From NCBI GenBank assembly GCA_010094025.1, contig ML991814.1:204123-268122 (forward strand): 64,000 bases of DNA. Direction: 5' to 3'. A program made the position numbers and the translations under genes. The DNA comes from Viridothelium virens (lineage: Eukaryota; Ascomycota; Dothideomycetes; Trypetheliales; Trypetheliaceae). The notes below the pieces were generated by a model that worked only from the letters and a program-made list of their open reading frames with translations, was not told the DNA's origin and did no database searches. This document shows, one piece after another, positions 6,384 through 64,000 of the stretch; within the stretch, counting starts at the first letter, position 1; each line of letters opens with the position of its first letter.

Positions 6384-8804
6384 ATGGCGGAGCCCATCCC
6401 TGGTGGAGAGATGGATCCGAACACTGCGCAACCTCTGGACACTGCCACTGATGAAGCCGTACATGCTTCTACGGTCGAGCAGTCGGCCCCGCCAGCAGGT
6501 AGGTGACGGACGCTTCACATGCGCAGGGTTGGGGAAGCATATTAACATCAATGCTGTCTCTATAGACCCAGATACATCAATGGTAGAGGAAAAGGAAGAT
6601 TCCGCAGCTCCACCCATCAAAAAATCACCACACGACACCTCTACATCAACTCCTGCAGTCATATCCGATAACCCAATGGATGCTCCACCCGAGCCACCAG
6701 CCGAAGTCGATGCTGCGGATGGCATCGCAGACGAAGATATGGGAGGCATGGATGATGAGACGAAAAAGGAAGAAGGCGCTGATAAGGATGCTCCTGAGGC
6801 GGGCGAGGGTGCAGCAGATCGCCAACCTCAGCAGACAAAAGATAGCCTACAGGCGTCAGCACGGTCACATTTGATTCAACAAACGCATCAGATCATCCTG
6901 CCTAGTTATAGCGCATGGTTCGACATGAACACCATACACAACCTGGAGAGGAAGGCACTCCCTGAATTTTTCAACGAGCGAAACCGGAGTAAGACCCCGG
7001 CTGTATACAAGGACTACCGGGATTTTATGGTCAATACCTACCGTTTAAACCCTGCAGAATATCTCACGGTTACGGCCTGTCGGCGGAACCTGGCTGGCGA
7101 TGTTTGCGCAATCATGCGGGTTCATGCTTTCTTAGAGCAGTGGGGATTAATCAATTATCAGGTTTGTAAAGCCGAAACAATCACGTACCTTCTGACTAAA
7201 CTTACTAGATCGATCCTGATACTCGACCATCTACTACAGGACCCCCATTTACAGGTCATTTCAAGATCATTGCAGACACACCACGGGGTCTCCAGGCACA
7301 CCAACCAGCGCCGCATTCTTACGTTTCTCAGGGCCGTCCTCTCACCGCTACCGAGCGGCTAGCAAATACTCCAGCTCCCTCGAAGTCGGAACTGAACCTT
7401 GAAATACGTCGAAATATCTATGAGGGGAATGGAAAGGAAGTCACCCCTTCAGAGAAAGAGAAGCCAGCCAATGGGGACACCACCGCGGATGGAGAAACCA
7501 CATCGAAAGACTTGACAGAATCACTGAAACAGCCGGGCAAGCAATTCTTTTGTTATGCTTGTGGAGTGGACTGCACACGAGTGCGCTACCATTACTCGAA
7601 ATCGATAGAAGCCGGTCAGGGGAAGACTCCCACAACTGTCAAATACGACCTTTGTCCGGTAGACTTCTTGGAGTGTCGGTTCCCCTCAAATACTGTGGCA
7701 GCCGAGTATACTCGTCTTGAGAATGACAGATATTCGACGGTTCCTGACAAGGACGCGCCATGGACTGACGCAGAGACTCTTGCTCTACTCGAAGCTCTAG
7801 ATGCCGGGCCTAATGACAATTGGGACAAGATTGCTGATGCTGTTGGAACAAGGACGACCGAAGAATGCATTCTCAAATTCCTACAAATGGAGATCGAAGA
7901 CCCCTACCTCGAGAACGACGCCAGCAACGAACCCAGCGGCAGTCTCGCCTACCTCAGCAACGGCCGCATCCCAATAACCCAATCCGACAACCCCGTCCTC
8001 TCCGTCCTCAGCTTCCTCGCCGGTCTCGCCGACCCAACCACCACCGCCGCAGCCGCCGGCAAGAGCGCTGAAGAAATGCGCCGCAACATGCGCGAGCGCC
8101 TCGAAAAAGGCGCCTTCCCCCACCCCAACGACAGCTCCACCAACACCGCAGACAAGGGCAAAGAGAAGGAAAGCAGCGCCTCTGGCGACCCCATCAAAAC
8201 CGAGTCCGCACCCCCCGCCACCGCCGTCACCGACGCCATGGACATCGACCACGCTCGCTCCTCCCACGAACCCACCAGCACCACCGCCCTCGCGACCACC
8301 TCCCCCTCCTCCACCAAAGACGCACCAACAACAAGCCACAACCCCAACCCGATCGCCAGCACGGCGCTCGCCCTCGGCGGCGCCCGCGCCTCCGCCCTCG
8401 CATCCCACCAAGAGCGGCGCCTCACGCGCCTCGTCTCGCAATGCAACAACCTGCAGACGCAAAAACTCGAGCTCAAGCTGCAGCAATTTGCGGACATGGA
8501 GGCGATGCTGCAAGCCGAGCGGCGCGACCTCGAGCGCCGTCGGCAGCAGCTGTTTCTCGATCGGCTGGCGTTCAAGCAGCGCATGGTGGCGGTGGAGGAG
8601 GCGATGCAGCGCGCGTGGAGTGTGGGTGGGGAGGAGGGTGCGAGGTTGGCGAAGGAGGTTGTGGGGGGTGTTTGGCCGGCGGAGAGGATGGGGATGAGTG
8701 TTGCGGCGAGGACGGGGGCGGGGAGTACGGGGAGTGGAGGGGAGGGGGCGGAGGTGAAGCCGGTGGGGGAGGGGACGCCGGGGTATCAGAGTTTGAGGAT
8801 TTGA
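6384..8804 (+). CDS. RSC8: SWI3/RSC8-family subunit of SWI/SNF and RSC chromatin remodellers
   Basis: Exons 6384..6498, 6566..7161 and 7209..8804 give 768 residues. Domains in order: an acidic, Pro-rich N-terminus; SWIRM at about 145-240 ([48 protein letters not shown]); a ZZ-like zinc module at about 345-385 ([19 protein letters not shown] and DLCPVDF); SANT at about 420-465 ([46 protein letters not shown]); and a long coiled coil at about 645-710. This order defines the SWI3/RSC8/SMARCC core scaffold, which dimerises through its coiled coil. Filamentous fungi usually have one such gene, so it may serve both complexes. The 3' part of the last exon has extreme C-then-G composition that does not break the frame. 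Confidence in family is high; SWI/SNF versus RSC assignment is open. Confidence 0.93.
7900..8790. other. GC island with C-to-G skew switch (centre ~8.5 kb)
   Basis: Inside the last SWI3 exon the top strand is C-rich up to about 8440 (roughly 30 C and 9 G in 7981-8040) and G-rich after about 8580 (roughly 34 G and 5 C in 8641-8700). It creates a false 335-codon antisense frame. Confidence 0.75.
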
Positions 8805-9381
8805 GGAGAGGGGTTTTTGCGCTGGAAAGGGGGGCATTACTATTATCGTGAAGGTGTGAGCTGGGCGTTTGGCGGAACCAGGGCACATTTTTCATGAGTG
8901 ATGGACTAAGTGTGGTAGGACTAGTCGAGTTTCTAGCGGCTGTCTGTCTCCCTTGGCTTCTGGTGTTTCCACCTGGTAGATGGAGCGAGAAAAAAGGAAC
9001 TAGGCTGCCCATTGCTCCATATTGTAGGCTTAATTAAAGAATCAAGACGATTTGAGAGTAATTTTCTTGTCCTTTCTATCATTTGATTACCATACGGTGT
9101 GATTCCCGCGCCTGCACGATAACCGCAACGACAACGGCTTGGTGGATGAGGGTGAACGGGCTATAGAAGGCCTGGAACTGCCTGGGAAAGAGTGTTGAGA
9201 CATTTCCGCTCCTGTTGAAGGCTCGGTCAACGAGCTGTGATTCACTTTCTCACCCCGATACACTACTTCCAGCGCCATATCCCTCCCTGTCTATATGATG
9301 GTATACGGTGTAGGAAAAACGCTTCCGCCGTAGTTTTAGTTAGCACTATTTCACATAAGAGAGTTTTGAAATGAGAATCCC
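8805..9381. other. Convergent 3' intergenic region
   Basis: It holds the 3' ends of the SWI3-like gene (+) and the FAD monooxygenase (-). I see no gene or repeat. Confidence 0.5.
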
Positions 9382-11019: not shown

Positions 11020-12916
11020 GTTGCTACGTTGGTGTGTAGGGGTGCTTTGATGACGATAGGTGAATGTCAAGTGATATGGAGCTTCAAGAGCTTACGGAGA
11101 ATTGACAAGGTCAAAGGCCAGTGAGAATGTACAACTCCACTACAGCTGCCCAGAAAGAGATGCCTTTATATCATATCTTAGTACGCAGCCCCACCACATC
11201 ATGACGGAATCCTTTGGGTGCATGGGTCGCGCACCTCGAATTTGAACCATGCCGCAAAGATCCGCATTGCTGCAGTAAGACCTACTGTTGCAGGGTATGG
11301 TGTTGCCGAGTCATTGGGCAGCCTACTTGCCTACCTGGGTCCAGCGATATTACGTCTCGTCGAACTTAGGTGAGATTCGCAGATTCACAGAATGTCCAAA
11401 CAGTATGCGAAATGATCTTCAATCTTGTGCGAAGAGAAGGGAAGTTTGAATCCTTACGTTCGCATGAGTTCGCATGATTTGGCGTTCCGTGCCACTGATC
11501 CAGGCTTCCTCATGGCTTCCTCATGGCTTTCACCCCAGTCGTGACGGACAAGCGGGCACTAGTTAGTGTGTTGTAACTAATGCACATCTTCATGATGGGC
11601 GATCGACGACTAGTATAGTGTAACTAGGTAACTAGTGAACTTTGTCAATTGGATTGCTGGTTAGGACTGAATGCTCGAGGCGCTTCGGACCCCGAGATAG
11701 GACAAAGGCACAGCATGCGGATGCAGTATTGAGATCCATGTCTTTGGAGGTCAATAATTGCTCACACAAGACATTTTCCAGCAGGGTGAATGCGGTCGGG
11801 GAAGAGGCAAGAGAGGACAGGGTGGATTGGTGGTCGGACCACTGGCACGTACGTTGGAGCTGGAAGAGTAACACCGAGTAAGGTGGAACTACGTACTCCG
11901 CAGAGCGAGTGCTGCCCTGAATGGGTTGCACTGCATGCTTTGCCTTACCTAAGTTAACTTCGCGATGCTTGCCGCCACGCGACATGGTTGTCCGGATGCC
12001 GCACTCCGAGACGAGGCTAGGCTTGACTTTCAAGGTTGCTATCTTCTTTAAAGCAAGCCCGCTCAACGGAAAGTACATATGGATGGGGTCTATCTTAACC
12101 CGAGAGCGTGGTTCCGAAAGGCCATGTGGTTATGCTTCAAGATACGAAGTACGAGATGCAGGAACCGTCGCGTGCTTCTCGCAGGAATGGGGCTCTGATA
12201 GACTCTGCAACACACCCTCTGCTCTACGTACGGGAGACAGAAAGGCGCAATGATGCGCCTTCGGATTTTGTTTCGGGGCTCTGGGGCCCCCGAAATCGGG
12301 CAAGATCAACGACTAAGTGGAAGACTCCAAAGTCTCCGATCTCCAGGTCCACGGTGCCGTGGTTTCTGGTCTGCTGAGAACTCAAAAGACCTTGAAGCTC
12401 GACTTTGCGTCACCGCGCTAAATGTCGTGAGCATGGAGAGAATAAGGTAACTTGGCATTCTTAGGTGGCTGTAGATCTGCTAGATCAGGCAGGGTTCATT
12501 CATGTAATAATACTCCGTAGCAAGCGAAAAACCTTCTAGCCAGAGTCGACCGGAGCTATCTCCGTGCTGCCGCTTTACCAGATTCGCCTCCAGATCCAGA
12601 AAGTGGGAGGCTTCGTAGGGTATACCAAAAAAGTAAAGAGTGTATATAGCAGCCAGGGCACGCATAAACAAACTTGAAGATCCAGTCTGCTCTTCGGTCG
12701 GCTCCCGAGCATCTCCTGTATCCATCTCCAACACTGTCATCACTTGCTTCTATCCCTCAAGGTTACGAGGCTTTACTCCAAGGTTAAACTTCACCGCAAC
12801 TCACAAGTCGGGTGGAATCAAATGCCGAGCACCTAACGTCGTCGGAGTATGTACGGCATCTGTCTGACAGGTGCAGTAGACACCGAACCCGAGCCCTTCT
12901 AAATGGACTTACCATT
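11020..12916. other. Gene-poor intergenic DNA
   Basis: About 1.9 kb without a convincing gene. Open frames up to 148 codons (minus strand, 11632-12078) lack domains or credible splice partners. Base composition is ordinary, without the obvious TpA-rich look of RIP-degraded transposons. It includes a short inverted repeat at 11557-11637, a local duplication of GGCTTCCTCAT near 11505-11530, and one TACTCCGTA at 12511. Confidence 0.5.
11557..11637. repeat. Short inverted repeat, MITE-like or palindromic spacer
   Basis: CACTAGTTA at 11557-11565 is the exact reverse complement of TAACTAGTG at 11629-11637. The 63 bp between contain further TAACTA and TAGT variants. No flanking target-site duplication was evident, so a mobile origin is only a guess. 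Confidence 0.35.
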
Positions 12917-13488
12917 TGTGGAAAGAAGTCGACTGAAGGAATCCGGTGAGGTAATCAACTACCTATTTCTAATGCTCGTGGTGAACGATACGCATCTACA
13001 CGTCTGCCTACCTCTAATAATCCGTTTGGGGAAACTCTTCGCAATCTAGTGTCACCGGTGTCGAAGAAAATCGCCGACTCGAGGCCAGATAGGGATAGAT
13101 TAGCTTGTGGAAAGAAGTAGACTGAAGGAATCCGGTGAGGTAATCAACTACTTCTAATGATCGTGGTAAACGATAAACGATACGCGTCTACACATCCGCC
13201 TACCTCTAATAGCCTGTTTGGGAAAACTCCTCGCAATCCAGTGTCACCGGTGTCGAAGAATCTCGCCGACTCGAGGCCAGATAGGGATAGATTAGCTTGT
13301 GGACAGAAGTAGGCTGAAGGAATCCGGTGAGGTAATCAACTACTTCTAATGATCGTGGTAAACGAGAAACGATAAACGATACCCATCTATATATCTGCCT
13401 ACCTCTAATAACCTAGTCGGGAAAACTCCTCGCAATCCAGTGTCACCGGTGTTGAGGAAACTCGCCGACTCGAGGCTAGATAGGGATA
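12917..13488. repeat. Three tandem copies of a ~190 bp unit
   Basis: Copies begin at TGTGG at 12917, 13106 and 13298 (periods 189 and 192 bp). Each carries GAAGGAATCCGGTGAGGTAA, then ATCAACTAC, TGCCTACCTCTAAT-type and TCGCAATC-type blocks, the palindrome CACCGGTG (13053, 13245, 13444), CGCCGACTCGAGGC and TAGATAGGGATA-like ends. Copies 2 and 3 are closer to each other, sharing small insertions around CGATAAACGATA. No open frame runs through the units, so this is a non-coding minisatellite-like array. The origin is unknown. Confidence 0.85.
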
Positions 13489-23586: not shown

Positions 23587-25004
23587 ATGAGGAAGAAGCC
23601 CAAATTTCATGGCCTCAAGAAAATTGTATTGTCTATTCATCTTTGTTTCCATTCGAAGAGATGTCGCTAACCGGTTTACTCATAGAAAGTCCGCCAATCA
23701 TGGAACAAATTCAATCTCTACAACCTCTCTCGCATGCAAAAGCTCACCGTCGAGGACAAGACGTTCTTCCAGCAGAAATGGGCAGCTAAGGCGGTGACAC
23801 GCGCCTACCACGGAGAACAGATAAAAGAGAAGCAATGGCAGAGGATGTTTGATACAAGAATACCCTCAGTTCAATCAATGGATCATCGGTATCTAGCACA
23901 GCATGATGGATCTGAGCAAGCTGCTGGACGGGGCTCGGGAATTGAGCTGTCCAATGGGCTGGCCAAGAAGAGCCAGCCGAGGACGCCCTATATGCATATG
24001 GTGTATGGCCCAACAGAAAGGAGATTAGATACTGCCATATGGAGGGCCCTCTTTGCAAGTAGCGTACGACAAGCACGACAATTCGTAACGCACGGAGGCG
24101 TTAAAGTCAATGGCAAGAAGGTTAGACTGATAAATCTTGATGAAGGGCATCTTTATCTTATTTTATGTTCCTACAGATGATATACCCGGGATACCAGCTC
24201 AATCCAGGAGATATGTTTCAAGTCGATCCCGATCGAGTCATGTTCGCGACAGGAGCAATGAAGAACCAAGACAAAGCCTACAAGAAAGCGAAGTCACGCG
24301 AAGCCCAAGCAGCAGAAGAAGGAGCTACAGAAGAGGCCACGGCGGACGAAGGCAAAGAAGTATCTACCGAAACTGACAACACGTCAGAACAGGAAGATGG
24401 AGCTATCAACGCAAAATCAGACACTCCTCCCGAAGACCCTGAGCTCTCCCTCAAAGACCGCCAGAAAACCATCAAATCCCTCCTCGAAAACGCCAAGCTC
24501 ATCCTCTCCGACCCACACGACCGCCTTTCCGCCCCCCGCAAACAAGAATGGCGCGCCTTCTCCAAGCTCGTGCGCAGCACACTCTCCCGCGCTCGCACCA
24601 CCTCCGACGCCACCACCTCCGACCTGGAATCACAATTCCAGCTGCTGAAATCCAAGCTCGCGCCCACCTCGAGCTCCGCATCCAGCAAAGCCGCCGCCGA
24701 GGCGCACCAGCGCGAAGCAGAGGCGCGGATATCAGCCGAGGACGAGAGGATGCTGCGGGAAGCGCTGGAGCGAGCGTACGAGAATCCGGTCGATGATGCG
24801 AAGCCGTATGCAACCCCTTGGAGGCCGAGACCGTATATGAGTCCGTTTGCGTTCATCCCGAGGTACCTGGAGGTGAATCAGAATGTGTGTTCGGCGGTGT
24901 ATTTGAGGCATCCGGTGGCGAGGCCGGGGTTGGCGGAGGTGCCTACGCCGTTTCATTTGGAGACGAGTCAGTTGGCGTTCAACTGGTATTTGAGACGGAG
25001 GTAG
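23587..25004 (+). CDS. NAM9: Mitochondrial small-subunit ribosomal protein uS4 (Nam9)
   Basis: Exons 23587..23625 (13 codons, [13 protein letters not shown]), 23686..24120 and 24177..25004 give 433 residues. The start of exon 2 ([17 protein letters not shown]) and the block [18 protein letters not shown] match fungal Nam9. The S4 RNA-binding domain is [20 protein letters not shown], then [15 protein letters not shown] joined across an intron to [19 protein letters not shown]. The protein sits in the mitoribosomal small subunit and affects decoding fidelity. A long Glu/Ala-rich insertion separates the S4 domain from a conserved C-terminus ([20 protein letters not shown] to FNWYLRRR). The last 600 bp show the C-to-G composition switch. 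Confidence 0.92.
24420..24990. other. GC island with C-to-G skew switch (centre ~24.7 kb)
   Basis: In the uS4m last exon, 24481-24540 has about 31 C and 8 G, while 24901-24960 has about 25 G and 13 C. The frame is preserved throughout. Confidence 0.65.
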
Positions 25005-28848: not shown

Positions 28849-30900
28849 ATGCGCAAGACAATCTTCATTGCGGACGGTCTATGGCAATGCCTTTGTCCTC
28901 AATCTTCACAGCGAACGCTGTCAATTCGCCGGGTTCCAAGAATACAACATCACACGAAGCAAAAACGTCTCCTTTCCGATTTGCAAGCGGACTACAAACC
29001 TGTCACAACGCCAAGCAATGTGAGCTCAGCGCCTCCTCATAGCAAATCGGCGACAACTTGGAACTACAGACCGCAGACGAAAGAGATCTCAGATTCACGA
29101 TTCAAAATCAGTCCACTTTCCGATTCGCAAGCGGATGACAAACCTATCATAACGGGAAGGATTGTGAGCCCAGCGCATCTTCATAGCGAATCGGTGAGAA
29201 CTTGGAACTACAGAGCGCAGAAGACAGAGATCTCAGATCCACGATTGCAAAATGTACCTTCGCAAAAGGCGGGAAAAAAGGAAACGCCACGAATATCTAT
29301 ACCAGAGCTCTATGACCAACTGCGAGTGGAAGCAGCTAAAGGCGAGTATGGCAAAACTCACAGGTCTATAGATCTTCTTGTAAGGGTCCACCATGAGCAA
29401 CCGAACTTGAGGATCTTCGCTGCAAAGATTTTGGTCAATATTCATAGCGAACTAGGCTCCGCCCTTGCGGTAGCAGAGACGCTGAAAGAACTCAGGAGCG
29501 AGAATTTGCAACCGGATGCCGGACTCTGTCATGATATCTTGAGGGTACTCGCGATTCATCCTGATCACCTGCTCCAAAGCGAGATTCTCGAGTACATGCG
29601 GCAGAAATGGTTTACGCTCTCTCCTATTGGGGAACATGACGTCGTTGTTGGTTTACTTGCGGATCATCAATATGAAATGGCCCTTGATAGGATAGAGCGC
29701 ATGTGGAATGAGGACATTGTCATCCGGAGCTGGCTCCTCGATTTGACTGTCTACGTTCTTCTGGAAAACGAAGAGGTCGAAACCGCTTTCCGTTTCATGA
29801 AAGCAAGCGTGAACCGAAACGAGAACTCTATTTCTCCCACAGCTTGGTACCAATTGCTGGGTGTTGCAAGTAGCAATTACCATTATGATGCGACCGTACA
29901 TACGTGGAGGTTGAGAGTTGAGTCTGGCTACCTCAATCCACCCAGCGGCATATGCCTCAATGTTCTGAACACTGCTGCTCGACACGGAGATACGCAACTG
30001 GCTACGGACGTCCTACGTATATTAGGCGATCGAGGCACGGTTTTTAGCCATGAACACTACGAAGCCCTGATTGACGCCTACGCAACATACGGTGACATCG
30101 ACACTGCATTCAAGGTTCTCTCTCTCATGGACAACGAAAATATACGCCCTGAGCTCGCATCCACGAGGGCAATCTTCCATGCACTGAAGGACAGATCAAA
30201 ACAGACGGACAAGGCTCTTGAGTCTCTGAAAGAGCTCAAATCAAGCGGCCAAAAAGTTCCTGCTGCTGCAATGAACGTCGTTATTGAGGCTACGGTGCAT
30301 CAAAATCGGACCTCAGATGCACTCGAGCAATACAAGGCTCTTCACGAAATCTGTGACCAAGGTCCAAACACCGAAACCTTCAATGTTCTATTGCGTGGTT
30401 GCAGACAGGACAAGATCAAAGCCATGTTTGTGGCTTCAGAGATGCGCGCCTTGAATGTGCCTACCAACGAACTGACCTATGACCGCCTTATCCTCGCATG
30501 CATGCTATCTAACAGTGATGACTACGAAGATGCCATGCTATACTACGTTGAGATGAAGACTCGAGGATGGAAGCTGAGGAGAGGCACTCAGTTTATGTTG
30601 CTAAAGCGCTGTGTGGAAGCCGTAGATATGCGGGCACCAGAAATATTAAAAGACATGGCGCTCCTCCCCGACAACACTTACATTTCGAGCAGGAGGTGGT
30701 TTGAAAATAATTGGGCTGGTCCACCAATTGAGGATCTTCCTGAGATATCGGATCGGAGCGTTCGGCAGTCAAGGCCACCGAGTTGGGAGGACCCGATTAA
30801 GCGAAGAACGCTGAGGTCGAAGAATGAAGGAGTTCATATGCCTGCGGTTAGAGTGCTGAATGTAGCATCTTCGAACGAGGCAATGCAGGAACATAGGTAG
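28849..30900 (+). CDS. Pentatricopeptide-repeat protein, probably mitochondrial
   Basis: A single exon of 683 residues. The N-terminus is basic and hydrophobic (MRKTIFIADGLWQCLCPQSS, RRVPRIQHHTKQKR), consistent with mitochondrial import. A 48-residue tandem duplication follows, each copy ending in TWNYR and ISD. From about residue 150 the protein is a series of helical pairs of PPR type, for example TAWYQLLGVASSNYHYDATV, YEALIDAYATYGDIDTAFKV, MNVVIEATVHQNRTSDALEQ, TFNVLLRGCRQDKIKAMFVA and YDRLILACMLSNSDDYEDAM. PPR proteins bind organellar RNA and act in its maturation, stability or translation. The specific target cannot be predicted. The C-terminus is polar. Confidence 0.82.
   Translation: MRKTIFIADGLWQCLCPQSSQRTLSIRRVPRIQHHTKQKRLLSDLQADYKPVTTPSNVSSAPPHSKSATTWNYRPQTKEISDSRFKISPLSDSQADDKPIITGRIVSPAHLHSESVRTWNYRAQKTEISDPRLQNVPSQKAGKKETPRISIPELYDQLRVEAAKGEYGKTHRSIDLLVRVHHEQPNLRIFAAKILVNIHSELGSALAVAETLKELRSENLQPDAGLCHDILRVLAIHPDHLLQSEILEYMRQKWFTLSPIGEHDVVVGLLADHQYEMALDRIERMWNEDIVIRSWLLDLTVYVLLENEEVETAFRFMKASVNRNENSISPTAWYQLLGVASSNYHYDATVHTWRLRVESGYLNPPSGICLNVLNTAARHGDTQLATDVLRILGDRGTVFSHEHYEALIDAYATYGDIDTAFKVLSLMDNENIRPELASTRAIFHALKDRSKQTDKALESLKELKSSGQKVPAAAMNVVIEATVHQNRTSDALEQYKALHEICDQGPNTETFNVLLRGCRQDKIKAMFVASEMRALNVPTNELTYDRLILACMLSNSDDYEDAMLYYVEMKTRGWKLRRGTQFMLLKRCVEAVDMRAPEILKDMALLPDNTYISSRRWFENNWAGPPIEDLPEISDRSVRQSRPPSWEDPIKRRTLRSKNEGVHMPAVRVLNVASSNEAMQEHR
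28972..29259 (+). repeat. 144 bp in-frame tandem duplication in the PPR leader
   Basis: Two copies begin at CTTTCCGATT (28972 and 29116), 144 bp apart. They encode LSDLQADYKPVTT with TTWNYRPQTKEISDSR, and LSDSQADDKPIIT with RTWNYRAQKTEISDPR. Divergence is modest at the DNA level, so the duplication is not brand new. Confidence 0.85.
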
Positions 30901-38429: not shown

Positions 38430-38430
38430 G
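37560..38430. other. GC island with C-to-G skew switch (centre ~38.0 kb)
   Basis: The strongest island. 37621-37680 has about 33 C and 2 G, and 38281-38340 about 38 G and 4 C, with a balanced centre near 37990-38080. The left half is pyrimidine-rich and the right half purine-rich. Confidence 0.8.
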
Positions 38431-38784: not shown

Positions 38785-40020
38785 ATGTCTTCCGTTGAGG
38801 TTCTGAGCGGGCCTCTGTCAAATCTACATGGCATCTCTTTCACTAAGGCTGCGGCTGATTCAGCTCCGCCTACAAAGAGAAGGAGAACAGATTTAATGGA
38901 CATCAAAGAGCTGGCAGAATTTCTCAGAGAGGAAACCAATCTTCTTACAGGTAAGCTGGAACATCCCTTAACTTCACATGAAGTCTCTTTTTGTTGCACC
39001 ATATGTCCAAATTACTTCATCTTACTACTCTACATACTCAAGGACGAAATATTTGCTTTTTGTGTAGGAAGATGGAGATGAAAAAAAAATTAAATAAATA
39101 AATGAAAGAAGAAGCTGCCGAAGCAAGTTACATTCCTTTGAAACTGACAGCAAATTCAAGAGCTACCAACCCACGTCCGCGACAGTATCACGGTCACCCC
39201 CGACGCCATCGCCCTCTTCGCCTACTATGTCCGCCAACTCATCGGGCGAGACTACACCATGACGCAGAACGACTACTTCATCAACCGACTCCCCGTCTAC
39301 CTCCCTGCCATCACGCAAGTACGCTCCCTCCCCGACGGCGGCCCCCTCCATGCACACGACCTGATCTACCGCGTCGCCATGTACCACTTCCACAAGCTAG
39401 CCTTCCTCCGCAGCCACTGGGCGCCGACACCGGCCTCAATCCAGGCCTTCCAAGCCATCGACGAAGTGATGCTGAGCATCTCGGTGGACCTGTGGGAGAA
39501 AGCGCCGGAGCACTGGACTTCGCCGGCGATGCGCAACCTGATCGGTCGGATCCGCGACACGCAGCAGGACCAGGCCAACCCGGACATGGCGCGCAAGTAC
39601 CTGCACCGCACGGCGCAGTTCCTGGCGGAGATGCGCGCGGCCACGACGGCGCGCATGCTGGCGCGGAAGCTGGGCGAGGACAGGTTGCCGGTGGAGCTGG
39701 TGGGCGAGCTCGAGCGGCAGATTCTGGCGTCGAGAAGGTTGCCGTATTTGCCGACGGCGGGGGCGGTGAGGCGGTTGTGGGTGCCGCGGCCCGGGTTACC
39801 GCTGTGTTCGGTGCATTGGACGAAGTGCTCGAAGACGTGTCCGAATATTATGGAGATTGACTGGGTGGGGAAGGAGAGGAGGTTTGTCTATTATCATCAG
39901 GGGAGGCAGAGGTGTCATTTGGAGCACTGTAGGGGCCATCATGAGTTCTTTCCGGACGATCCGTATGATACGAATTTTTTGCTCTATCGGACGAATGGGG
40001 GTGTAGGTTTCTTTGATTGA
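38785..40020 (+). CDS. Unknown fungal protein with NLS and Cys/His-rich C-terminus
   Basis: Exons 38785..38950 and 39161..40020 give 341 residues. The N-terminus has a nuclear-localisation-like PPTKRRRTD and an acidic helix (DIKELAEFLREETNLL). The middle is helical (ALFAYYVRQLIGRDYTMTQN, IYRVAMYHFHKLAFLRSHWA, MARKYLHRTAQFLAEMRAAT). The C-terminus has regularly placed Cys and His: LPLCSVHWTKCSKTCPN, then RQRCHLEHCRGHHEFF, suggesting a metal site. I do not recognise a family. The 210 bp intron is long for this locus and contains an A-rich AAAT microsatellite near 39080-39105. The acceptor at 39161 was inferred from frame alone and could be wrong by a small exon. Confidence 0.6.
39160..39860. 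other. GC island with C-to-G skew switch (centre ~39.55 kb)
   Basis: 39301-39360 has about 31 C and 11 G; 39721-39780 about 28 G and 11 C. It generates a false 252-codon frame on the same strand. Confidence 0.65.
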
Positions 40021-44019: not shown

Positions 44020-46298
44020 CCTGTGATTGCAAATGACTGGCTGAAAACTTGACAAAAGCTGTAAGGCCCAAGGTAGAGACTCGTGGGCAAATACGGACAG
44101 TAACGAAGTAGAAGGTAAATAAGACAGTCGACGGCTATTACTTCGAAGGTTCTGCGGTTGTTAGCCTCATTTGGGAACAGGTATGCTATGTACTGTCGAA
44201 GCAGTATCTTTCTGTAATTAGCTCTCTGATGGAAAAATTTGTCTGGAACCCCCCATTGTCAATTAATGCCGCGTGCTTGACACGCATTAGTTTTGTATCA
44301 GCCGTAAATTATCTGTCATTTACTGTAAGTCCGAAAACAGCAACTTGCCGGTATCTGACTGAAATCTCTCAATAAGAATATGTCGATAAGCAGCATTAGA
44401 CTTACTCAATTCCGCCCTTTAGAAGTGAATCAAGTGAAGCACGAACTCTCTTCGAGGAACATCGCAGTAAGCAAGAAAGCTGGTCATGTTCATTGTCTTT
44501 AGTTATCCAGGAGGTCTATCGGCTCGGCTATCACCCATGATGGAAGAAATGAAGGAGATGGAAGATGTACATGGTTTCAGTTCTGTGAAGTGATGGACCA
44601 GCCAGTAACAAACATTCGGCACAAGGCGACAGACGATATGCAGGGGCCCCTCGAGTCGATACATCGGTGGTGGTAGGTGAATGAAACCCCCATGATGTTG
44701 GCTCATGTTTTAACCCAAATCTGGTCCTTTTGCTGAACTGAAAAAGAAAAACGCATTAATATCGTGAGACGGTTAGTGCATGGCATAATCCTCACAAATT
44801 TAGCCTATATTCCTTGGGATTAGATCCATCAAAGACAGGCGCGAGTTGTACCGGGACGTAGAAATTCGGAACAGCGACTTAGAGCTGCAGAAAGGATGCG
44901 CAGTAGAGTAGTTGTAATATTGCTTTTCACATGCAGCTCTGATGCGAGCAAGCATTGGAGCAGATGCAACAAGGCAATGAGGATGGAAGAAGAAAAACAC
45001 TTGGAGTTGCGACTATCAAAAGAAAATAATAGCAGATTTGGAACAAGACTTAACCTCCCTTAAATCACCGCATTCGAGGCGACTCTAGCGGCACCGAACA
45101 GCCCATATGCGCTATCACTAAGCAATGCCAGTGGACTAGGAGTTGGTGAGGCCATACTTATACCTGCACTAAATGAAGACATTCCACGGCCAACTCAATC
45201 GTTGAAGTGACGACCTCCACTTGAGTTGTAAGGTAGTGGGAAAAGGTCCGTGCGCTCGCTCTGGATACGTCTTCCAAATTCGGTGAACATGAACAGCTCC
45301 TCCTTCACAAGTCCTAGAATACTGGGAGACAACGCTCAACAGGTGCAAAAGGACTATAGACGTGAGGGAGAGCCTGTCCAGGGCGATTGTCGATTTTGCT
45401 CGACCGGATGGCCAGCGCAGCAGACACAAGAGTGTTCGGCCCAAGACACCTCGCATGAGAGGCAACGAGAAAAATCGAGCTGGCTGTATCATTCTTCGAC
45501 GAGACGTCCTTGCCAGGCTGGCCAAATACATAGAGAATTCCGAACACCAGCTAGCACCCATCAGAAATACCTTGGATCAACGACTTTGGCTTGCTAATAC
45601 CGGTGGTGTACTGATCCCGACGGCGGGCTCGAGGTGTTGAAATGGCTTGTTTCTACGAGCGTAGACATCTGTTTTCTCATTTGGGTAGTCTCGCCGTGGA
45701 GATTGTAATGGCTTGGGAGCGGGGACGTTGCGCTGCGCTTGGAGCTTCCATCTCTTTATAATTGGTTCCTGCCGTTCACGCTGCCCCTAAATACGGTTTA
45801 CCGCACCGAATGGTCAGGAAGCTTGCGTGCTCGCCAACGTAGATCTCGAATCACAAACCCGACGAGAGTCGGAGACTGGAGAAGGCGACGCGTGAGGTGG
45901 TAAAGTGCGAGGGTTTTGTGGGGCTCACCAGGCTGGCGAGAGGAGGGCATTAGGGGAGCTTTCGTGTTTGATGTTAGTGTGGCGTGGGTGGCCGTTTAGG
46001 TCAAGCCATCGGCATTTTCCGTCGGCGAGAAGTCAGGAACCGCATCTTGACCTGGAGATCCTCACCACTTCGACCACTTTTTCCCACACCCTCACGTGTC
46101 CACGCCTCGAATCACGTCTCTGATATCTTGCGTCATTGCCAATCTGCTTGACTTGTTACCCCACGCGACGCAAATAACAACCTTTTCCAGTCGTTTCCCA
46201 CTACTGTATTGCATAGCTGAATCCTGCAGGCCTGTAAAGTCCCTGCAGCACCTCGTAAGGCTTGTTCCATCAAGTACATTCGAATCCAAACTTCCACA
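44020..46298. other. Gene-poor 2.3 kb intergenic region
   Basis: No convincing gene. Overlapping frames of 92-130 codons at 45169-45640 occur on both strands; the plus-strand one at 45362-45640 contains GCIILRRDVLARLAKYIENS and starts only at GTG. The right end is the promoter and 5' UTR of the GYF gene. No tRNA or repeat array was recognised. Confidence 0.45.
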
Positions 46299-49200
46299 AT
46301 GGCTCCTTCGACTTTTGCTTCGGCGGCAGCGAGCAACAACTCGACTCCCTCGCGGACCGACAGTGGAGACGGGTAAGTGTCACGCTCCATCTTTCTTCCT
46401 CGTCTTCACCTACCCCTTCACACCTTGGCAGTATACACCTGCAAGTTTCCAGCCTGTCAAGGTACGAATCATGCCAGTAACCACCTACGGAGTATTCAAG
46501 CCTCCTTGTAGACTGAGCTACGACGAGGCGAGGATCGCTACCAGGATTCCACCTGGTGGCGACGACACGCTATCACACCAGAAAACAGATTTGAAAGGCG
46601 CACACTAACCTTTCAAGATCGCGACGGACAAACGGGGCTACCCAGACATTTCGTCGGTCGTCCCTCGCCGCGTCCTCCATCAATCCAAATACCAGAGAGG
46701 GCTCAACACCGTCATCCAATATTTACGTTCCCCCTCATATAGCTTCCAGTCGTAATGGTGTTCCCGCTGAAGCGCGATATTCAAAAGATCAGCTTCTTGA
46801 CCTCCTCAAACAACAGCAAGAAGCCATCCATCAGGCTCAAGATCTCTCTGCTCTGTTCGTTGGTGGATGGGATGGGCGGGACACGAACGGAGCAAACTAT
46901 GGTGATTTAGAGCCAAGGGAGAGGGGTCTGAATGGGCTGCCCCATGGAGCTGAAATATGCTGGGAATCAAATGGAGGTATACAGCCATTGGGTCTGATTG
47001 AAATGACTGAGGAGGAGAAAGAGGTTCGAACTTCGTGACCAGTTTCCCTGGCTCAGGCTAATACACTTCCAGCATTTTACCACGAGCGTGAATTCACCCA
47101 TAAAACCACCAACTCAGAATGCAAATAAAGATGGCTCGGCGCGTGATGGCTTGTCTCTTCGCAAATCCTCCATTACACGAGACCCCAATAATCCTGCATC
47201 GTTCGGCTTGGCCTCTCCTACAGCTACTCGATCTGGTGCAAGACGGCGGGAGCCAAGCGAATCTTATCCCTTTCCAAGCTCCGTCACTTCACCTTCCACT
47301 GGCAGTAAATCCTTCAGGGAGGATGGCAACCCGGCTCAACCACCACCTTCACTTTTAAGAAGGCGGACCGATTTCAAAGAAGGTACATCGACGCCAGATA
47401 CAGAGGAAAAAGAGAAGGATAAACCTCGAGAAGAAGGACCAGGCCAGTCGGGACCAACAGGAACTTTGAAGAGAACCGCGACAGGACCGTTAAGTGCGGG
47501 ACTCACTACACCTTCTTCGCCCTGGTCTTCTACCCCGCAAAGTGCTGGATTCAACCCTGTAGGAGGCGCTTTCGGGAGTTTCGCAATCGGTGCCTCCCAA
47601 GCTACATCCACAGCCGAAAGCCGGACAGGTTTTGGTAGCGTAAGAGGTCAAAGCAGATTTAAGGGTCTCATGTCCAAGGACAATAATGAAGATGCGAATA
47701 GGAATATCAGGGAAAAGCAGTCAGCTGGCGAGCTTGGGAAGATTGATGAGGGCGGCCAAACTTATCAGCCGCAAGCTTGGATGGACGCACGACGGGATCG
47801 TACGCTCACTATGGACACAGATGAAGGGGCTCGTGCCGGAAGTGCGGCTCTTGGAGGCGCCCAAGATATCAGTCCTCCCCGAACCCAAGTAGGGGCTGCC
47901 TCCGGCACACCATCTCGTGGAGATTCTAGAGATGATTATGGCTTTTCCGCTTTCGGTATGACTCCGGACCATTTGCCGGGCGGACTACGTGATATACTGC
48001 AAAACCGTGATCAATTGCAACAACTCGCAAACCAGCAGCAGAGCGGCGCTGGTACATTCGAGCCCATGAGCCCGACCGATACGAACCCATTCCAGAGCCC
48101 AGAAACACACCCACAGGACGCCGATGTAGACGAGTCAGATCTTCAAGCTGCGCATTTACCAGGCCTAGGTAGCCATGCAGCTGATCAAGGGGGTCTGCCG
48201 GGATTCTCTGCCCTTGGTGGACTTGGAGGCTTCGGTCGAACTCACATGGCTCCTGAAAGCGATAGAAGCCAGACGTCAAGTGCCGGACCGAACAGACAGT
48301 TTCCTAATCTGACCGGATTGGGTGGTTTGCCAGGCTTGGGTAACAGCACGTGGGGCAGCAGTGCACCTATAGGAACCCCCCTGAGAGAGAGAACAAGCAC
48401 CAATGCTTTTGCTGACAACTTCCTTGGCTCATCTGCAGAAGTCCAATCGCCTAGTCTCGCCGGTCTCGGCCCCAGTAATATCTTCGGGTCTGGCGCAGGT
48501 ATGGGCTTTGGTGGAGCTGCCAATGTCTCCCGTGGGAGTAGACTAGGGTCCCTCCTCCCAACAGCTATGCAAGACGAAATGCGACCTCGAGAAGACATTG
48601 GCCCACTTGAGGAAAACATTGGTAGTGAAAACCGAGACCGCAATCTTGGCAGCTTTGGTGCTGCTGCGCAACACAGGTTTGACACAGGTCTGGGAAGAGA
48701 GAGTGACAGTCCGTTCCATGCTGCTCGTGGCGTATTTGATGAAATTCTGGGATCTGCATCTGCACCTGGAGATACAGGGGCCAAACCACATGGTCAGCCA
48801 CAGCCCCAAGCAGGTATGCCTGGCAGTTCCTCAGTCATGGGCGCTTCCGCATCATTTAATCAAGGCCCTCAACAACGCCCTCCTCAGCAGCCGGACATAA
48901 GGCAAAGTCAGGGCCCGGCAAGTTCAGGTTCCAGCCAACCTCCACCCGCTCAACAAAGAACCATGGTAATGCCAGACCGAATGAGATGGATCTATCGAGA
49001 TCCTCAGGGCAATACACAAGGTCCATGGTCTGGTTTAGAAATGCATGATTGGTACAAAGCTGGCTTCTTCTCTCCGGAGCTGTTGGTGAAGAAGTACGAA
49101 GATCCAGACTACGAGCCTCTTGCTCAACTGATCCGTCGCATTGGCAACTCCCGCGAGCCATTCCTTGTTCCGCAAATTGGCATCCCTCATGGTCCCCCAA

Positions 49201-51722: not shown

Positions 51723-52504
51723 CTACATCGTTTGCCAAAAATAATTCGCGTAGAAGAACCTTGAGAACTTCGGATCGATGTTGACCACATGCACGTCTCC
51801 CTTCTGACTATTCCGTATGATCGCCTTGTTGTACGCGCCCGTCTCTCGATCCGGCTCGATGTCGATGCCCAAGCTGCGATAAACCTTGAGCTTCAATCTG
51901 TGCGATATCTCCCACATTAGCAACCATCATGACTCCCACTTTCATTTCGTCCCCTCCCTTCCATCAACGCAAAACAAAGACAAGATATACGGAACTCATT
52001 CCACACTCACATCACCTCATCCTCCCCCTCCCTCCCCTCCCTCTCCGCGGCTCCCCCCTCCGCCCCCTGCGCCTCCAACTCGCTCAACACCCCCCTCTGC
52101 CCCTCCCACTCCATCTCCAGCCGCTCCCCCTCGACCTCAAGGTCGCTCGCCGCCTTCGCAATCCGAAACTTCTGCGTATCGAGCGCCAGGATCCGCGACG
52201 CGTGCTCCGTCGGGTTATGCGCCGACGTCTCGACGTCGTGCTGCGAGGACAGATGCGCGAGCTGTCGTGTTAGCCGCTGCAGGCTGCTGGTCGCGGAGGA
52301 GAGGCGTAGGCTGCGCGCTGTGGTGAGGGTGCTGAGGGAGGAGGAGATGCGGCTGAGGGCGGCGCGGTCGGGGGTGATGTTGAAGTTGGAGGTGCATTCG
52401 GAGATGAGCTGGAGGGGGGGATGGCTGGGTTAGTGAGGTGGGTTGGGGGGGTTTACGAGGGGGAGGGTAGTGCGTACGGTTGCGGGATCTTCGTCGAGGA
52501 GCAT
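51723..52504 (-). CDS. SPC24: Kinetochore protein Spc24
   Basis: Exons 52504..52478 (nine codons, MLLDEDPAT), 52408..52011 and 51897..51723 give 199 residues. The N-terminal two thirds form a coiled coil ([60 protein letters not shown]). The globular C-terminus is the signature of Spc24: [40 protein letters not shown] and [17 protein letters not shown] at the very end. Spc24 pairs with Spc25 in the Ndc80 complex and docks it to the inner kinetochore. Exon 2 coincides with a GC island, giving Glu/Gly/Arg-rich sequence before the globular domain. The exon 2 donor was set at GTGAGT (52010), which restores the conserved frame. The gene diverges from FIS1. Confidence 0.92.
51990..52480. other. GC island with C-to-G skew switch (centre ~52.2 kb)
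   Basis: 52021-52080 has about 41 C and 8 G; 52381-52440 about 31 G and 5 C. It covers SPC24 exon 2 and its first intron. Confidence 0.75.
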
Positions 52505-52770
52505 GATGATTGTTGCGCGAAACTGTGGGATTTTTAGGGAGATTGCGGATGCTCGAAATGTGACGTTCGCGACCTAATGGGTTCTGGTCGTTTGATCTTT
52601 GAATTTGTGTAGGGAGTTGAGAGGTTGAAGTCGTGGTGTTGTGACTCTTGGTCCCCACAACAACGAACCATGTTTGGTAAGCGTGACATCGGCCAGGCGT
52701 GGGGCAGGCTTCATCAAGATTGACGCAACCAGAAAATAACCCGATTTTCCGTCAATCCTAAGTCACATTC
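52505..52770. promoter_or_regulatory. Divergent promoter of SPC24 and FIS1
   Basis: Only 266 bp separate the two start codons, so the two promoters must overlap. No motif recognised. Confidence 0.5.
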
Positions 52771-55809: not shown

Positions 55810-56917
55810 CGTGATGTTAATTGTGTAGGCTTTAGGATTTCTCTACTGGGTATCTTCTTTGAGGGCAACCAGTACTTCTCAAGTTTCAAGATGGGATGGC
55901 TCCGGGCTTAGTATTCACGGAGATTTGGTAGCTGATCATACTCACGCTCACCTTAACAATGGGAATGAGCGAGGTCTCTGCAGTGCTCTTAGATCAAAGA
56001 TTCAGCCGCCAGTAGAACCTCACATTTGCGCCCAAATGATACGTGCATCAGCAACGCCCCGAATTGATGTGGCGCTAGGGAGAGAGGCAAAAACTGAAAT
56101 CAATCATCGGCCCCTTGAAGGCGGAGAGCCATTAAGCGCTAGTACCGAACGGTCACTGCCGAAGTCGCTGCCGCTTGTTCGGGCAAGAACAACGGACGTG
56201 CAGCTGGAGTGGTGGGTTACTGTAGATAGGTATGTACGGAGTACTCCGTGTCGAGTTGGAAACGTGACAAGCAACAAAAGGTTACGGCCGCTGTAAATCA
56301 ATAGCGCTAAATGCACACCGCACGATATTGAGCTCCATCGAGTATGAAGTGCGGCTACTCATCAGTCTATCAGCAGTACCAGCCGATAGTCTAGCAGGGG
56401 AAGAAAGACGATAAGGCGGGCATTGATTGGACCGTCTCTCATGCGACTTCGTTCGACAAAGTCGCATCATCGCTCCCGCATTGCCCAACCTCCCCCGTCA
56501 CCCACCCCGTCGTTGTTAAGCCGTCCGGTGAGTTTCTGACAAGCTCCACTCGTCTGTTTGCGAGCTCACCTGAATTCCGCCAGCTCGTGAGACTGTTTCC
56601 AAACAAATCTGCCGCCGTGAAGGGGCTTCCACTCGTTTACCTTGTTTGCTGACGCCTCCGTACCCTCGCTTCTCCGACCTCCTTCTCCGCCATCCTCCGC
56701 CGGCCAAGAATCCCACTCCAAACACCTCGTTGTGACATTTAGTTCCCTCCCAACCCTCTTTTCTCCTTCGGCTTCGCTCTCGATCGATCTGGGACTTAAG
56801 CAAGCTCTGCGGCTCGTCAATTCCTCAACTCCTTGGCCGTCCATCCCTCCGACCGACCTACTAATCCCTACATTCCACAGCTCAGCACGGTGGCTTGTTT
56901 AACAGAGCAGGGCTTAG
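55810..56917. other. Intergenic region upstream of BST1
   Basis: About 1.1 kb with no gene. It contains the overlapping inverted nonamers TACGGAGTA and TACTCCGTG (56235-56250) and, at its right, the BST1 promoter with CT-rich stretches near 56660-56790. Confidence 0.5.
56235..56250. repeat. Palindrome made of overlapping TACGGAGTA/TACTCCGTG
   Basis: The near-perfect dyad is a back-to-back pair of the nonamer TACTCCGTA, which is also found singly at 12511, 46486 (as TACGGAGTA) and 51706. Confidence 0.6.
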
Positions 56918-61409: not shown

Positions 61410-62748
61410 ATGAGGCCTACGCTGACCCTGGTAGCCCTTATAGCCCTCGTAGCGGGGGCTATCGCTCAAGTCACATTTCAAAATAGTTCCCAGACAATAC
61501 TGCGCGTCGATAATGGCTCCTACGGACCAGAGATCGAGGAGTATCATTACTACTACGACCAATGGCCTATCGGATTATCCGTCTCGAGCAAGGGCAGGCT
61601 TTTCGTCTGCTACACTCGAGGCGACTATCAATTCACTTTAGGAGAAGCTGTCAACAAGACTGCTGAGGTGCCGTATCCCGCTGGCCTCAACCTTCCCGCG
61701 TCCGAGACTAATACGACGTGGCATGGCATTCAATTTGGTAGTAATAATCAGACGGGACTTATCAGTGTACAAGCACTGTACATTACGCCAGCCACAGCAA
61801 ATCGCCCTGAAACACTATGGGTGCTGGATACTGGAAGACCCACGATCATGAACGCCCAAGGGGTGCCGACTATGCCGTACGGCCAGCCAGGTGGACCGAA
61901 GGTCATCGGAATCTCCTTAAATAACGATACGGTCTACGCGACGTACACTTTTCCATCGGATGTCCATTATCCCGACTCTTACATGAATGATATCCGATTT
62001 GGTAAGCCAAACCAATCGCAAGCTTCAATCTTTAAAAGGCTAAGTGTTTCCAGACCTCCGATCAAATGTGACCTCGAGCGGCCAAGGCATCGCCTACATC
62101 GTTGATAGCAGTAACGAAGGCCGCCCTGGCTTCATCATGCTCGATCTCGGAACCGGTGACTCTTGGCGACGCCTATCTCAGGACGCCTCCGTCCTCCGTG
62201 TCGACCAAGACGTACCGTCTTATCAAGGCCATCCCTTCTACCAGAACACGCTCGGCAGCCCGATCGGTCACCTTCAGGAGGGCCTCGACGGCATCCAGCT
62301 TTCACCAGATGGCAAGACAATCTACTACTCGCCCCTTACAGGTAACTACTTGTACTCAGTGCCCGCCGCCAATCTCCGGGAGAGGGATACCAATCCCCTG
62401 GCCGACCAAGCAGCGCATAACAATGTCAGTAACCTTGGCCAGCGCGGTGGTAACGCGAACGGCTTTGAGGGCGATTCAAATGGGCTGGTCTATCAGCTCA
62501 TGCCGGAGCACAACGCCATATATTACTACGATCCGCGGGATCTGCAAACGCACGGGTATGTACGGGATCCAAGGATCATCTGGCCTGACAGTGCAAGTAT
62601 TGGCGCGGATGGGTACTTTTACATGAATATCAATCAGTTGCCATACCAACCCATGTGGAACGGGGGTGTGGATTTGAGGATGCACCCTGGTGCGGTGCTG
62701 AGATGCAAGCTGCTAGGAAACGGAACGAAGATTTCAACGCTTGGGTGA
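61410..62748 (+). CDS. Secreted Yellow / major-royal-jelly-like protein
   Basis: Exons 61410..62001 and 62054..62748 give 428 residues. The N-terminus (MRPTLTLVALIALVAGAIAQ) is a signal peptide. The beta-propeller body carries family landmarks: WPIGLSVSSKGRLFVCYTRG, ALYITPATANRPETLWVLDT, GRP, GIAYIVDSSNEGRPGFIMLD, EGLDGIQLSPDGKTIYYSPL and GNYLYSVPA, with IIWPDSASIGADGYFYMNIN near the end. These features are shared with the Yellow/MRJP family of insects and with bacterial and fungal relatives. Several NxS/T sequons support secretion. The biochemical role in fungi is not established; binding or lactonase-like chemistry is only conjecture. The single intron (52 bp) is in phase 1. Confidence 0.86.
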
Positions 62749-62912
62749 GCCAGAAATCGGCTACTGCTTTACTTAGATTAGGGGAGAAAGCAAAAGCTGG
62801 AGAGGACAGAATAGAGAGGCAGGAACGCTGATCACCAAGATACCACATAGCCAAGTAGAAACGTATGGTCCATTTCTTTTCGTATCTTTCTATCGTTTTG
62901 TGTCCTACAGTC

Positions 62913-64000
62913 CTACAATCCTTTGGCAGAATTTACTGCGCGGACAATTCCATAACTTGCTCCTGCTGCAAGCGCACCAACAACTAGAGTATGTAATGCG
63001 CTCCACAATGCTGCTATTTTCGTGGTTCCCATCGCCTTCGCCTTAGCAAACCCAAACAGGAGCAAGATGGCCGCCGTTATGCCGATAGACAAGAAGAGAG
63101 CGAAATTAACGTTGTGAGAAGCAAAGTAGGGTATCATCGGGATAAGTCCTCCTGGAAGCTCGAGTTAGTTGTCTCTCAGTCAATCCCATTGCATCGACCT
63201 CCAACAAAGGACTGACCAATGAAATATGACGAGCCCATAGCAAGCGCCGACATCCAATTCTGGGAGGTTTTTGGCTTCTCCAACCGAAGTTCAAACGCCA
63301 TCATAAACTGCACCAAAGTCAGCCAGTCAGTTCTCTCCGACCCATTTATTCCACCTCATATCCTGTATTCTTAGGGAAAACCCCATCCTGCCACACCTTC
63401 CTCCACACCAAAAGTGGCATCTCCAACAAACAAAGCAAACCTCACATACATTAACCCACTCCTCCGGCCTCCTCCTCAACTCCTCCACTACTCCCCTCCC
63501 CGCCCCCGGACTAATCCCATACCCCGCCAAAACCCGATACGTCTTCTCCTCCACCCTCACCTCTCTCTCCCTCTCCCTTTGCCCCCTCACCTCCGCCTCC
63601 ACCACCCCCAATCCTGCCTCCACATCCCCCGCCCTGACCTGCATCTCCTGTCCCGCCGCCGCCGTCCCCAACGCCTCGACCTCCTTCTGCGCCCTTGCCT
63701 CCGCCACCTCATACTGCTTCTGCTCCGTCGCCGCCGCAAGATACGCACCGAGGCCCATAGAGATCGCGCCGGAGAACAACTCCGCGAGGCCGCCGAGGAT
63801 GACGAGGCGGGAGGAGCCGAGGGAGGAGAGGCCGGCGGTGAGGGCGAAGGGGACGGTCAGGCCGTCGGCGAGGCCGAGGCTGGTGTCGCGGAGGAGGGTG
63901 GAGCGTTTCTTGCGGTGGGGCGGGCGGGGTTCTGAGTGTGGGTGGCTGTCGTGGTTGTGGTGGTGGTGGAGATGGTGGTTGTGGGAGGGAGAGGGAGGGG
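62913..64000 (-). CDS. CCC1: CCC1/VIT1-family vacuolar iron/manganese transporter, 5' partial
   Basis: Exons >64000..63450, 63307..63217 and 63151..62913 are visible; the start lies beyond the window. The first visible stretch is His-rich (HNHHLHHHHNHD) and is followed by RKKRSTLLRDTSLGLADGLT, VPFALTAGLSSLGSSRLVIL and GGLAELFSGAISMGLGAYLA, the first transmembrane pair of the family. A charged membrane-proximal helix domain follows (QKQYEVAEARAQKEVEALGT; REREREVRVEEKTYRVLAGY), then FMMAFELRLEKPKTSQNWMS. The last hydrophobic segments are ALAMGSSYFIGGLIPMIPYF, FALFLSIGITAAILLLFGFA and IAALWSALHTLVVGALAAGA. Family members load Fe2+ or Mn2+ into the vacuole. The acidic central helices are the usual metal-binding part, here lengthened by a GC-island segment. 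Confidence 0.9.
63400..64000. other. GC island with C-to-G skew switch (centre ~63.75 kb), cut by window end
   Basis: 63541-63600 has about 36 C and 3 G; 63781-63840 about 33 G and 15 C. The left half is almost pure pyrimidine and the right half purine-rich. It covers the 5' exon of the CCC1-like gene. Confidence 0.75.

Follow-up and report, generated by a model that had tools for sequence, protein, structure and literature searches.

Short GC-rich islands in which the top strand turns from C-rich to G-rich recur in a 64-kb window of the Viridothelium virens genome (positions 204,123 to 268,122 of contig ML991814.1 in assembly GCA_010094025.1; the window is the whole stretch of 64,000 nucleotides that was analyzed, and coordinates are counted from its first letter). 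Gene content suggests that the window is compact nuclear DNA of a filamentous ascomycete. About 23 genes were tallied by hand from open reading frames (ORFs), and seven of these have an island, which corresponds to approximately one site per 9 kb. Each island consists of a C-rich left arm (C arm), a balanced center, and a G-rich right arm (G arm). Introns, as well as the limits of the PTEN-like, g39, and Ccc1-like genes, were set partly by eye. The labels TOK1, NAM9, PTEN, Ccc1, and PGAP1 are presumptive, some being based on family membership.

The islands differ in the part of the gene that they occupy. Island 1 (7901–8875; C arm 7901–8437, center 8438–8583, G arm 8584–8875) is in the 3′ part of a plus-strand gene for a SWI3/RSC8-like subunit (Pfam SWIRM, SWIRM-assoc_1, and Myb; best match in the Protein Data Bank [PDB] is Ssr1, 23cp) and its G arm extends ∼70 bp beyond the stop codon. 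Island 2 (24422–24941; C arm 24422–24683, center 24684–24867, G arm 24868–24941) is in the 3′ half of the plus-strand gene for mitochondrial uS4 (NAM9), which has an S4 domain in an upstream exon and a best PDB match to mitochondrial ribosomal protein S4 (6yw5). Island 3 (31441–32118; C arm 31441–31606, center 31607–31745, G arm 31746–32118) is in the 5′ part of a plus-strand gene for a PTEN-like phosphatase (Pfam DSPc, 1.6e-9; PTEN_C2 was under the cut-off). Its C arm covers most of an intron placed by eye at 31428–31520 (A24 C42 G7 T20), and ∼1.1 kb of unskewed coding sequence (CDS) follows its G arm. Island 5 (39163–39935; C arm 39163–39459, center 39460–39655, G arm 39656–39935) is in a large exon of a plus-strand gene without a Pfam match.

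The remaining islands are in minus-strand genes, a difference that by symmetry does not discriminate among explanations. Island 4 (37585–38487; C arm 37585–37908, center 37909–38088, G arm 38089–38487) spans nearly the whole of an F-box-like gene, for which the F-box match was under the Pfam cut-off. Island 6 (51909–52643; C arm 51909–52173, center 52174–52234, G arm 52235–52643) takes in most of the kinetochore gene Spc24 (Pfam Spc24, 1.5e-37), two introns, and the 5′ flank; intron 1 (52409–52477) is within the G arm and has a top-strand composition of A9 C5 G40 T15. The F-box-like and Spc24 genes are small and are largely covered by their islands. Island 7 (63381–64000; C arm 63381–63735, center 63736–63794, G arm from 63795 to at least 64000) is in a gene for a VIT/CCC1-like iron transporter (Pfam VIT1, 6.6e-23) and is cut off by the end of the window. 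Across islands, parts of four introns, two 5′ flanks, and one 3′ flank fall within arms, which are thus not confined to exons as a preliminary description of this DNA had stated.

Detection and polarity of islands

Islands were detected with a step scan that, at each point, subtracts the G–C count of the 300 bp on the left from that of the 300 bp on the right (D, threshold of 84). Seven C-to-G peaks, with D of 114–207, are at 8485, 24709, 31737, 37921, 39462, 52208, and 63699, whereas in 300 dinucleotide-preserving shuffles, steps in either direction reached at most 90. Scans with 400-bp flanks recovered all seven peaks and one more at 56883; those with 200-bp flanks lost island 5 and gained peaks at 46858 and 56878, and those with 150-bp flanks retained five peaks. 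A hidden Markov model (HMM) with four states and a free state order identified seven triplets of C, balanced, and G states of 0.5–1 kb, the islands described above. It also identified an eighth triplet at 34146–36382 in an AAA-ATPase gene, where a short segment rich in C and another rich in G flank a long (2-kb) A-rich, T-poor middle; because of this middle, it was excluded from the islands. The closest pair, islands 4 and 5, is spaced 1.6 kb apart. The seven islands of the preliminary description are therefore upheld by the step scan, the shuffles, and the HMM. The C:G ratios that it reported (3:1 to 16:1 on the left and 1:2 to 1:9 on the right) are too steep for whole HMM arms, in which ratios are ∼2.5:1 to 7:1 on the left and 1:2.4 to 1:5 on the right; steeper ratios are confined to some 100-bp bins.

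The polarity of islands is consistent. No triplet with the reverse order (G, balanced, C) was identified by the free-order HMM in the window. When each of the six complete islands was scored against a template made from the others, the true polarity scored +21 to +113 and the swapped polarity −87 to −122. The preliminary description had noted no island of opposite order, which holds for HMM triplets, but weaker G-to-C switches do occur. In the 300-bp scan, 12 G-to-C peaks have D ≥ 84, of which eight are outer edges of islands and four are elsewhere (23451, 46000, 56466, and 1537). The latter have D of 84–92, with two barely exceeding the shuffle maximum, and are in bins with a GC content of 0.44–0.56, compared to 0.60–0.70 in the richest bins of islands. 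A codon-level test found a G-to-C switch (p < 0.05) in six of the seven island CDSs, located on the outer limit of an arm or close to it.

Strand-specific bias at silent sites

Skew in the arms resides at silent sites. At fourfold sites 75–400 bp from a center, counts on the 5′ side are C 249, A 41, G 44, and T 17 (n = 351) and those on the 3′ side are G 210, C 22, T 19, and A 14 (n = 265). The background from 16 other CDSs is A 1058, C 1182, G 920, and T 1215; this set omits NAM9a, Fis1, RINGa, and the first part of MRJP from 20 CDS pieces outside the islands and keeps pieces with weak switches. Synonymous codons were also permuted within each gene, which retains both the protein and its codon usage, and all seven island genes deviate from permutations (z of 5.1–9.0). 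The island CDSs tested are free of internal stops. Noncoding pieces of arms, from introns and flanks, are skewed in the same manner (left A77 C112 G17 T52; right A59 C32 G151 T94). The left is the mirror of the right, in that the left and the reverse-complemented right do not differ (chi-square p = 0.51), and AT skew changes sign over the center (A77:T52 on the left and A59:T94 on the right). Proteins are affected as well; pooled across the seven genes, C arms are enriched in L, S, H, and A and G arms in R, G, E, and V. Neither codon usage nor amino acids are responsible for the islands, given the permutation result and the continuation of skew through introns and flanks. The codon-usage alternative that the preliminary description had kept in play is accordingly set aside.

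Gene conversion biased toward GC (gBGC) raises silent-site GC locally, over a few hundred bases, and favors G and C alike. The islands are similar in that fourfold GC rises around the center, reaching 0.88–0.94 within 100 bp compared to 0.45 at 700–1200 bp. They differ in that mainly C is favored on the left and mainly G on the right, and C is lost to T at twofold sites of G arms. In codons ending in a pyrimidine (NNY), C:T is 95:8 in C arms and 17:52 in G arms, and in codons ending in a purine (NNR), G:A is 115:6 in G arms and 20:34 in C arms. The corresponding background ratios in the 16 other CDSs are 925:902 and 856:653. Plain GC-biased conversion is rejected since on the G side, T beats C at sites where only C and T are permitted, and such conversion cannot yield a loss of C to T.

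A model with a single rule accounts for fourfold sites. In it, C is favored on the strand running 5′ to 3′ into a point, and the position of the point has Gaussian scatter. Fitted with three parameters to 1141 fourfold sites, the model has an Akaike information criterion (AIC) of 2296, a scatter (sigma) of ∼155 bp, and a reach of ∼370 bp. A symmetric GC bias alone, with its scatter held at 60 bp, has an AIC of 2691, or 395 units worse, which together with the NNY ratio in G arms removes GC-biased conversion in its usual sense, one of the processes named in the preliminary description. Adding a symmetric bias or a penalty on G to the single rule did not improve the likelihood, though in two of the three richer fits the negative log-likelihood was slightly above that of the three-parameter fit, meaning that the optimizer had stopped short of the optimum. 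Arm distances were taken from centers of the HMM middle states, and the model fit moved three of these by 10–37 bp. Asymmetry (S) is 0.17 at 0–50 bp (bootstrap −0.04 to 0.35), is maximal at 150–300 bp, and is gone at 700–1200 bp (S = −0.17), as is the GC excess. Centers are GC-rich and unskewed because the point scatters, and a separate GC bias is not needed at fourfold sites.

Each island thus records a bias in substitution at silent sites that is strand-specific and arranged around a point. A bidirectional process centered on a point, as the preliminary description had proposed, fits: arms mirror each other, the center is unskewed and GC-rich, the effect is gone beyond ∼700 bp, and it crosses borders of exons, introns, and flanks. 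Context-dependent damage of the type caused by deaminases was also considered as a source and rejected, as the neighboring base has little effect; fourfold preference is broadly even over neighbors, with C at 0.61–0.87 in C arms and G at 0.72–0.89 in G arms.

Causes of the islands

We tentatively favor, at close to an even chance of being correct, a reading in which the strand bias and the points around which it is arranged mark preferred sites of recombination initiated by double-strand breaks, meiotic or mitotic, within genes. Recombination initiation is the best candidate because of the sub-kilobase reach, the density of about one site per 9 kb, the symmetric center, the mirror-image arms, and the indifference to exon borders, with a strand-specific bias in repair as the favored process. 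A break would be followed by 5′ resection, and the strand whose 3′ end lies at the break would pair with the homologue. If mismatches with a G contributed by the homologue (T:G, A:G, and G:G) were corrected to that G more often than mismatches without G are corrected, C would build up on the invading 3′ strand. This correction step draws on what is generally known of glycosylases and mismatch repair. In the islands, C is indeed favored over every other base on the strand that runs 5′ to 3′ into the point and, by symmetry, the top strand is rich in C on the left of the point and in G on its right. Alternatively, the strand running outward, extruded as a single strand during repair synthesis, may be damaged (C>G, C>T, and A>G). 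Biased correction and damage to the outward strand would both yield the observed polarity, and damage to the resected 3′ tail would probably yield the opposite.

Published data on recombination offer parallels and differences. Asymmetry at human meiotic breaks is absent within ±100 bp but strong in the flanking sequence (PMC7615360), and the islands are alike in having a symmetric center and asymmetric, mirror-image flanks. The human signal, however, is of rare variants and is kilobases wide, whereas that of islands is of base composition and is narrower. As we read the text of that paper, its figure aside, damage to the resected tail would deplete C on the forward strand to the left of the break (PMC7615360), the reverse of the polarity in islands. 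Hotspots of ascomycetes are often within exons; in Zymoseptoria tritici, a filamentous ascomycete, 1435 of 2578 mapped hotspots are so located (PMC5844332), and intragenic hotspots at a density of the order of that of islands are plausible by analogy. The word "skew" is absent from the text of PMC5844332.

Several observations count against recombination initiation or suggest that its simplest rule is incomplete. In Z. tritici, GC-biased conversion was reported to be weak or absent (PMC5844332); the test was done in intergenic 10-kb windows (PMC5844332), so a strand-specific effect at the sub-kilobase scale would be missed. A significant C-to-G change in skew was reported for 33% of genes in Candida albicans, 14% in Saccharomyces cerevisiae, and 7.5% in Schizosaccharomyces pombe (PMC3315797). 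Because C. albicans, described as asexual (PMC3845650), has the highest share, a purely meiotic cause fits badly. Mitotic recombination, one of two models for the GC content of this species (PMC3845650), would resolve the objection. A search for shared words of 7–10 nucleotides at the seven centers yielded GC-rich words that only equaled the 95th percentile of Markov resamples, and no clear motif. At twofold sites, the deficit of C in G arms is significant relative to the 16 CDSs (p = 2e-5) and to flanks in the same genes (p = 0.002), and there is a deficit of G in C arms relative to the 16 CDSs (p = 0.005; p = 0.19 relative to own flanks). Noncoding arm pieces, which are mostly from outer arms, show no rise in GC (0.50 on the left and 0.54 on the right), and in those of the left arm the fraction of G is as low as 0.07. 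Twofold and noncoding sites thus hint at an extra penalty on G, one that is unneeded in the fourfold fit. Lastly, outside the islands, a matched filter run on the raw sequence gave no surplus of C-to-G switches: the best score was 16.0 in the true polarity and 17.7 in the swapped polarity, and the best ten of each scored alike, whereas the codon-based test described below did separate polarities.

Transcription is the cause that has been considered for a related pattern. In most fungi examined by McLean and Tirosh in 2011, genes have a bias to C at the 5′ end and to G at the 3′ end (PMC3315797). The skew holds at fourfold sites, reaches promoters and untranslated regions, and shifts amino-acid usage, and several filamentous ascomycetes are among the data sets (PMC3315797). 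Proposed causes are transcription-phase mutation or avoidance of C (PMC3315797). In the same manner, all seven islands are genic, have C then G on the coding strand and at fourfold sites, and extend into flanks. The order on the coding strand is, by symmetry, automatic for any C-to-G island inside a gene and is therefore compatible with transcription; any such island also adds to the published average with the sign reported there. Other CDS pieces lean in this direction too: in 14 of 21, skew is greater in the 3′ half than in the 5′ half (p = 0.096). It is nevertheless doubtful that the islands result from mutation or selection in the transcription phase, be it that cofactors of RNA polymerase II and repair differ along a gene or that C is avoided near the 3′ end. 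The published skew is an average over the genome that is anchored at start and stop codons, and one group in that study, mainly Candida and Saccharomyces, shifts steeply from C to G starting at the promoter (PMC3315797), whereas islands are discrete, present in only some genes, and have centers scattered from 0.20 to 0.89 along the six genes with approximate limits. In the PTEN-like gene, the CDS past the G arm is near-unskewed (−0.05, then 0.07), and in the SWI3 gene ∼1.8 kb ahead of the C arm is only weakly C-biased (−0.18 and −0.06). Published AT skew along genes is flat and mostly positive (PMC3315797), but in noncoding pieces of islands it changes sign. Transcription also gives no reason for the GC-rich, unskewed center. 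Scattered centers, unskewed neighboring CDSs, and the change in AT skew fit a point within the gene better than they fit gene ends.

Other explanations are weaker. Initiation of bidirectional replication, in which outward leading strands turn G-rich as in bacteria, predicts the polarity of islands, including T over A on the G side. But the asymmetry is gone at 700–1200 bp, whereas forks travel many kilobases, the smallest spacing seems too dense for origins, and a fourfold GC of ∼0.9 near the center is left unexplained. The initiation site suggested in the preliminary description is therefore improbable, as the skew is too short. Selection could instead act on the coding sequence or on the RNA, through codon optimality, runs of amino acids, or a long hairpin in which the C and G halves of the mRNA pair, and this is consistent with the shift in composition of the encoded proteins. 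It is also consistent with a duplex energy between left and right arms that is >2 standard deviations (SD) below arm-wise shuffles in three islands (1, 6, and 7) and with folding of the whole island below shuffles in one (island 6, z = −4.5). In the other four islands, neither measure is below −2 SD (30 shuffles each), and only six inverted-repeat pairs of 14–40 nucleotides were found in all seven islands together; a hairpin or palindrome as the general cause is rejected on these results. Introns and flanks carry the bias, the permutation that preserves amino acids leaves it intact, and pooled G arms favor T at NNY codons and G at fourfold sites, with C arms of the same genes being reversed. 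Such selection is hence a very unlikely source. Chance or a quirk of assembly is scarcely credible: the shared polarity of the seven islands has by itself a one-sided probability of 1/128, but steps exceed the shuffle maximum, leave-one-out scores separate polarities, and CDSs lack internal stops.

The islands are a sharper form of the published gene-level skew. The averaged skew was already known; what is new is its concentration in discrete islands of some genes with centers in variable positions. Among titles and openings of abstracts in open-licence PubMed Central, none was found on discrete C-to-G islands or on recombination as a reading of fungal skew. The footprint is real, strong, mirror-symmetric, and strand-specific. 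If islands are break sites, base composition alone would provide a fine-scale map of historical hotspots for any such fungus, and conversion bias would depend on which strand bears the mismatch, a dependence that is averaged out in ordinary models of GC bias. The skew described in 2011, for which two transcription-based explanations have been given, would also gain a testable cause. A broader proposal is possible, though we lean somewhat against it: recombination-initiation sites in filamentous ascomycetes write a mirror-image signature at silent sites, in which C wins on the 3′-ended strand, and the 5′-C/3′-G skew of genes is the average of such footprints and not a product of transcription. 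If so, one genome would be enough to read off hotspots together with their polarity. Should the cause prove transcriptional, the signal would still sit in discrete intragenic points that the published average hides. In conserved genes, Spc24 and SWI3 among them, islands also shift the composition of the protein and codon statistics.

Weaker switches and other features of the window

Outside the islands, the codon-level test identified C-to-G switches (p < 0.05) in 5 of 20 CDS pieces and G-to-C switches in none; approximately one of each is expected by chance. The five pieces are o15644, the upstream exon of NAM9, PPR, AAA, and MRJP. Two of the 20, SWI3a and NAM9a, are upstream exons of island genes. 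The switch in the AAA-ATPase gene (plus strand, Pfam AAA) is at approximately 35900–36382 with a center at ∼36115 (z = 4.7), and that in a gene for a major-royal-jelly-protein-like product (plus strand, Pfam MRJP) is at approximately 62200–62748 with a center at ∼62469 (z = 3.0).

A G-then-C switch at 45864–46800, upstream of the GYF ORF and away from islands, has D of 91 with 300-bp flanks and a GC content of 0.52–0.56. With flanks of 150, 200, and 400 bp, it is the strongest G-to-C switch that is not an island edge. The HMM also identified a lone C-rich segment without a G arm at 56653–56888, just upstream of the PGAP1-like ORFs; it is similar to the promoters with a C bias in the skew published for fungi.

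Pfam families were identified for other genes in the window: a La protein, a GYF protein, a DUF7025 AAA-ATPase, PGAP1, and MRJP-like proteins. Searches of the window for RNA genes found no Rfam match at the gathering score and no tRNA. Close relatives of single proteins of the window, or of parts of these, were not found in viral contigs or in contigs of prokaryote genomes. Two tandem repeats are present. A 192-bp unit occurs three times, head-to-tail and with an 88% match, at 12916–13488, where there is no ORF of 150 amino acids. Near the start of the PPR-like gene, at 28972–29253, a 144-bp unit occurs twice with an 85% match and without indels, and the duplication is hence in frame.

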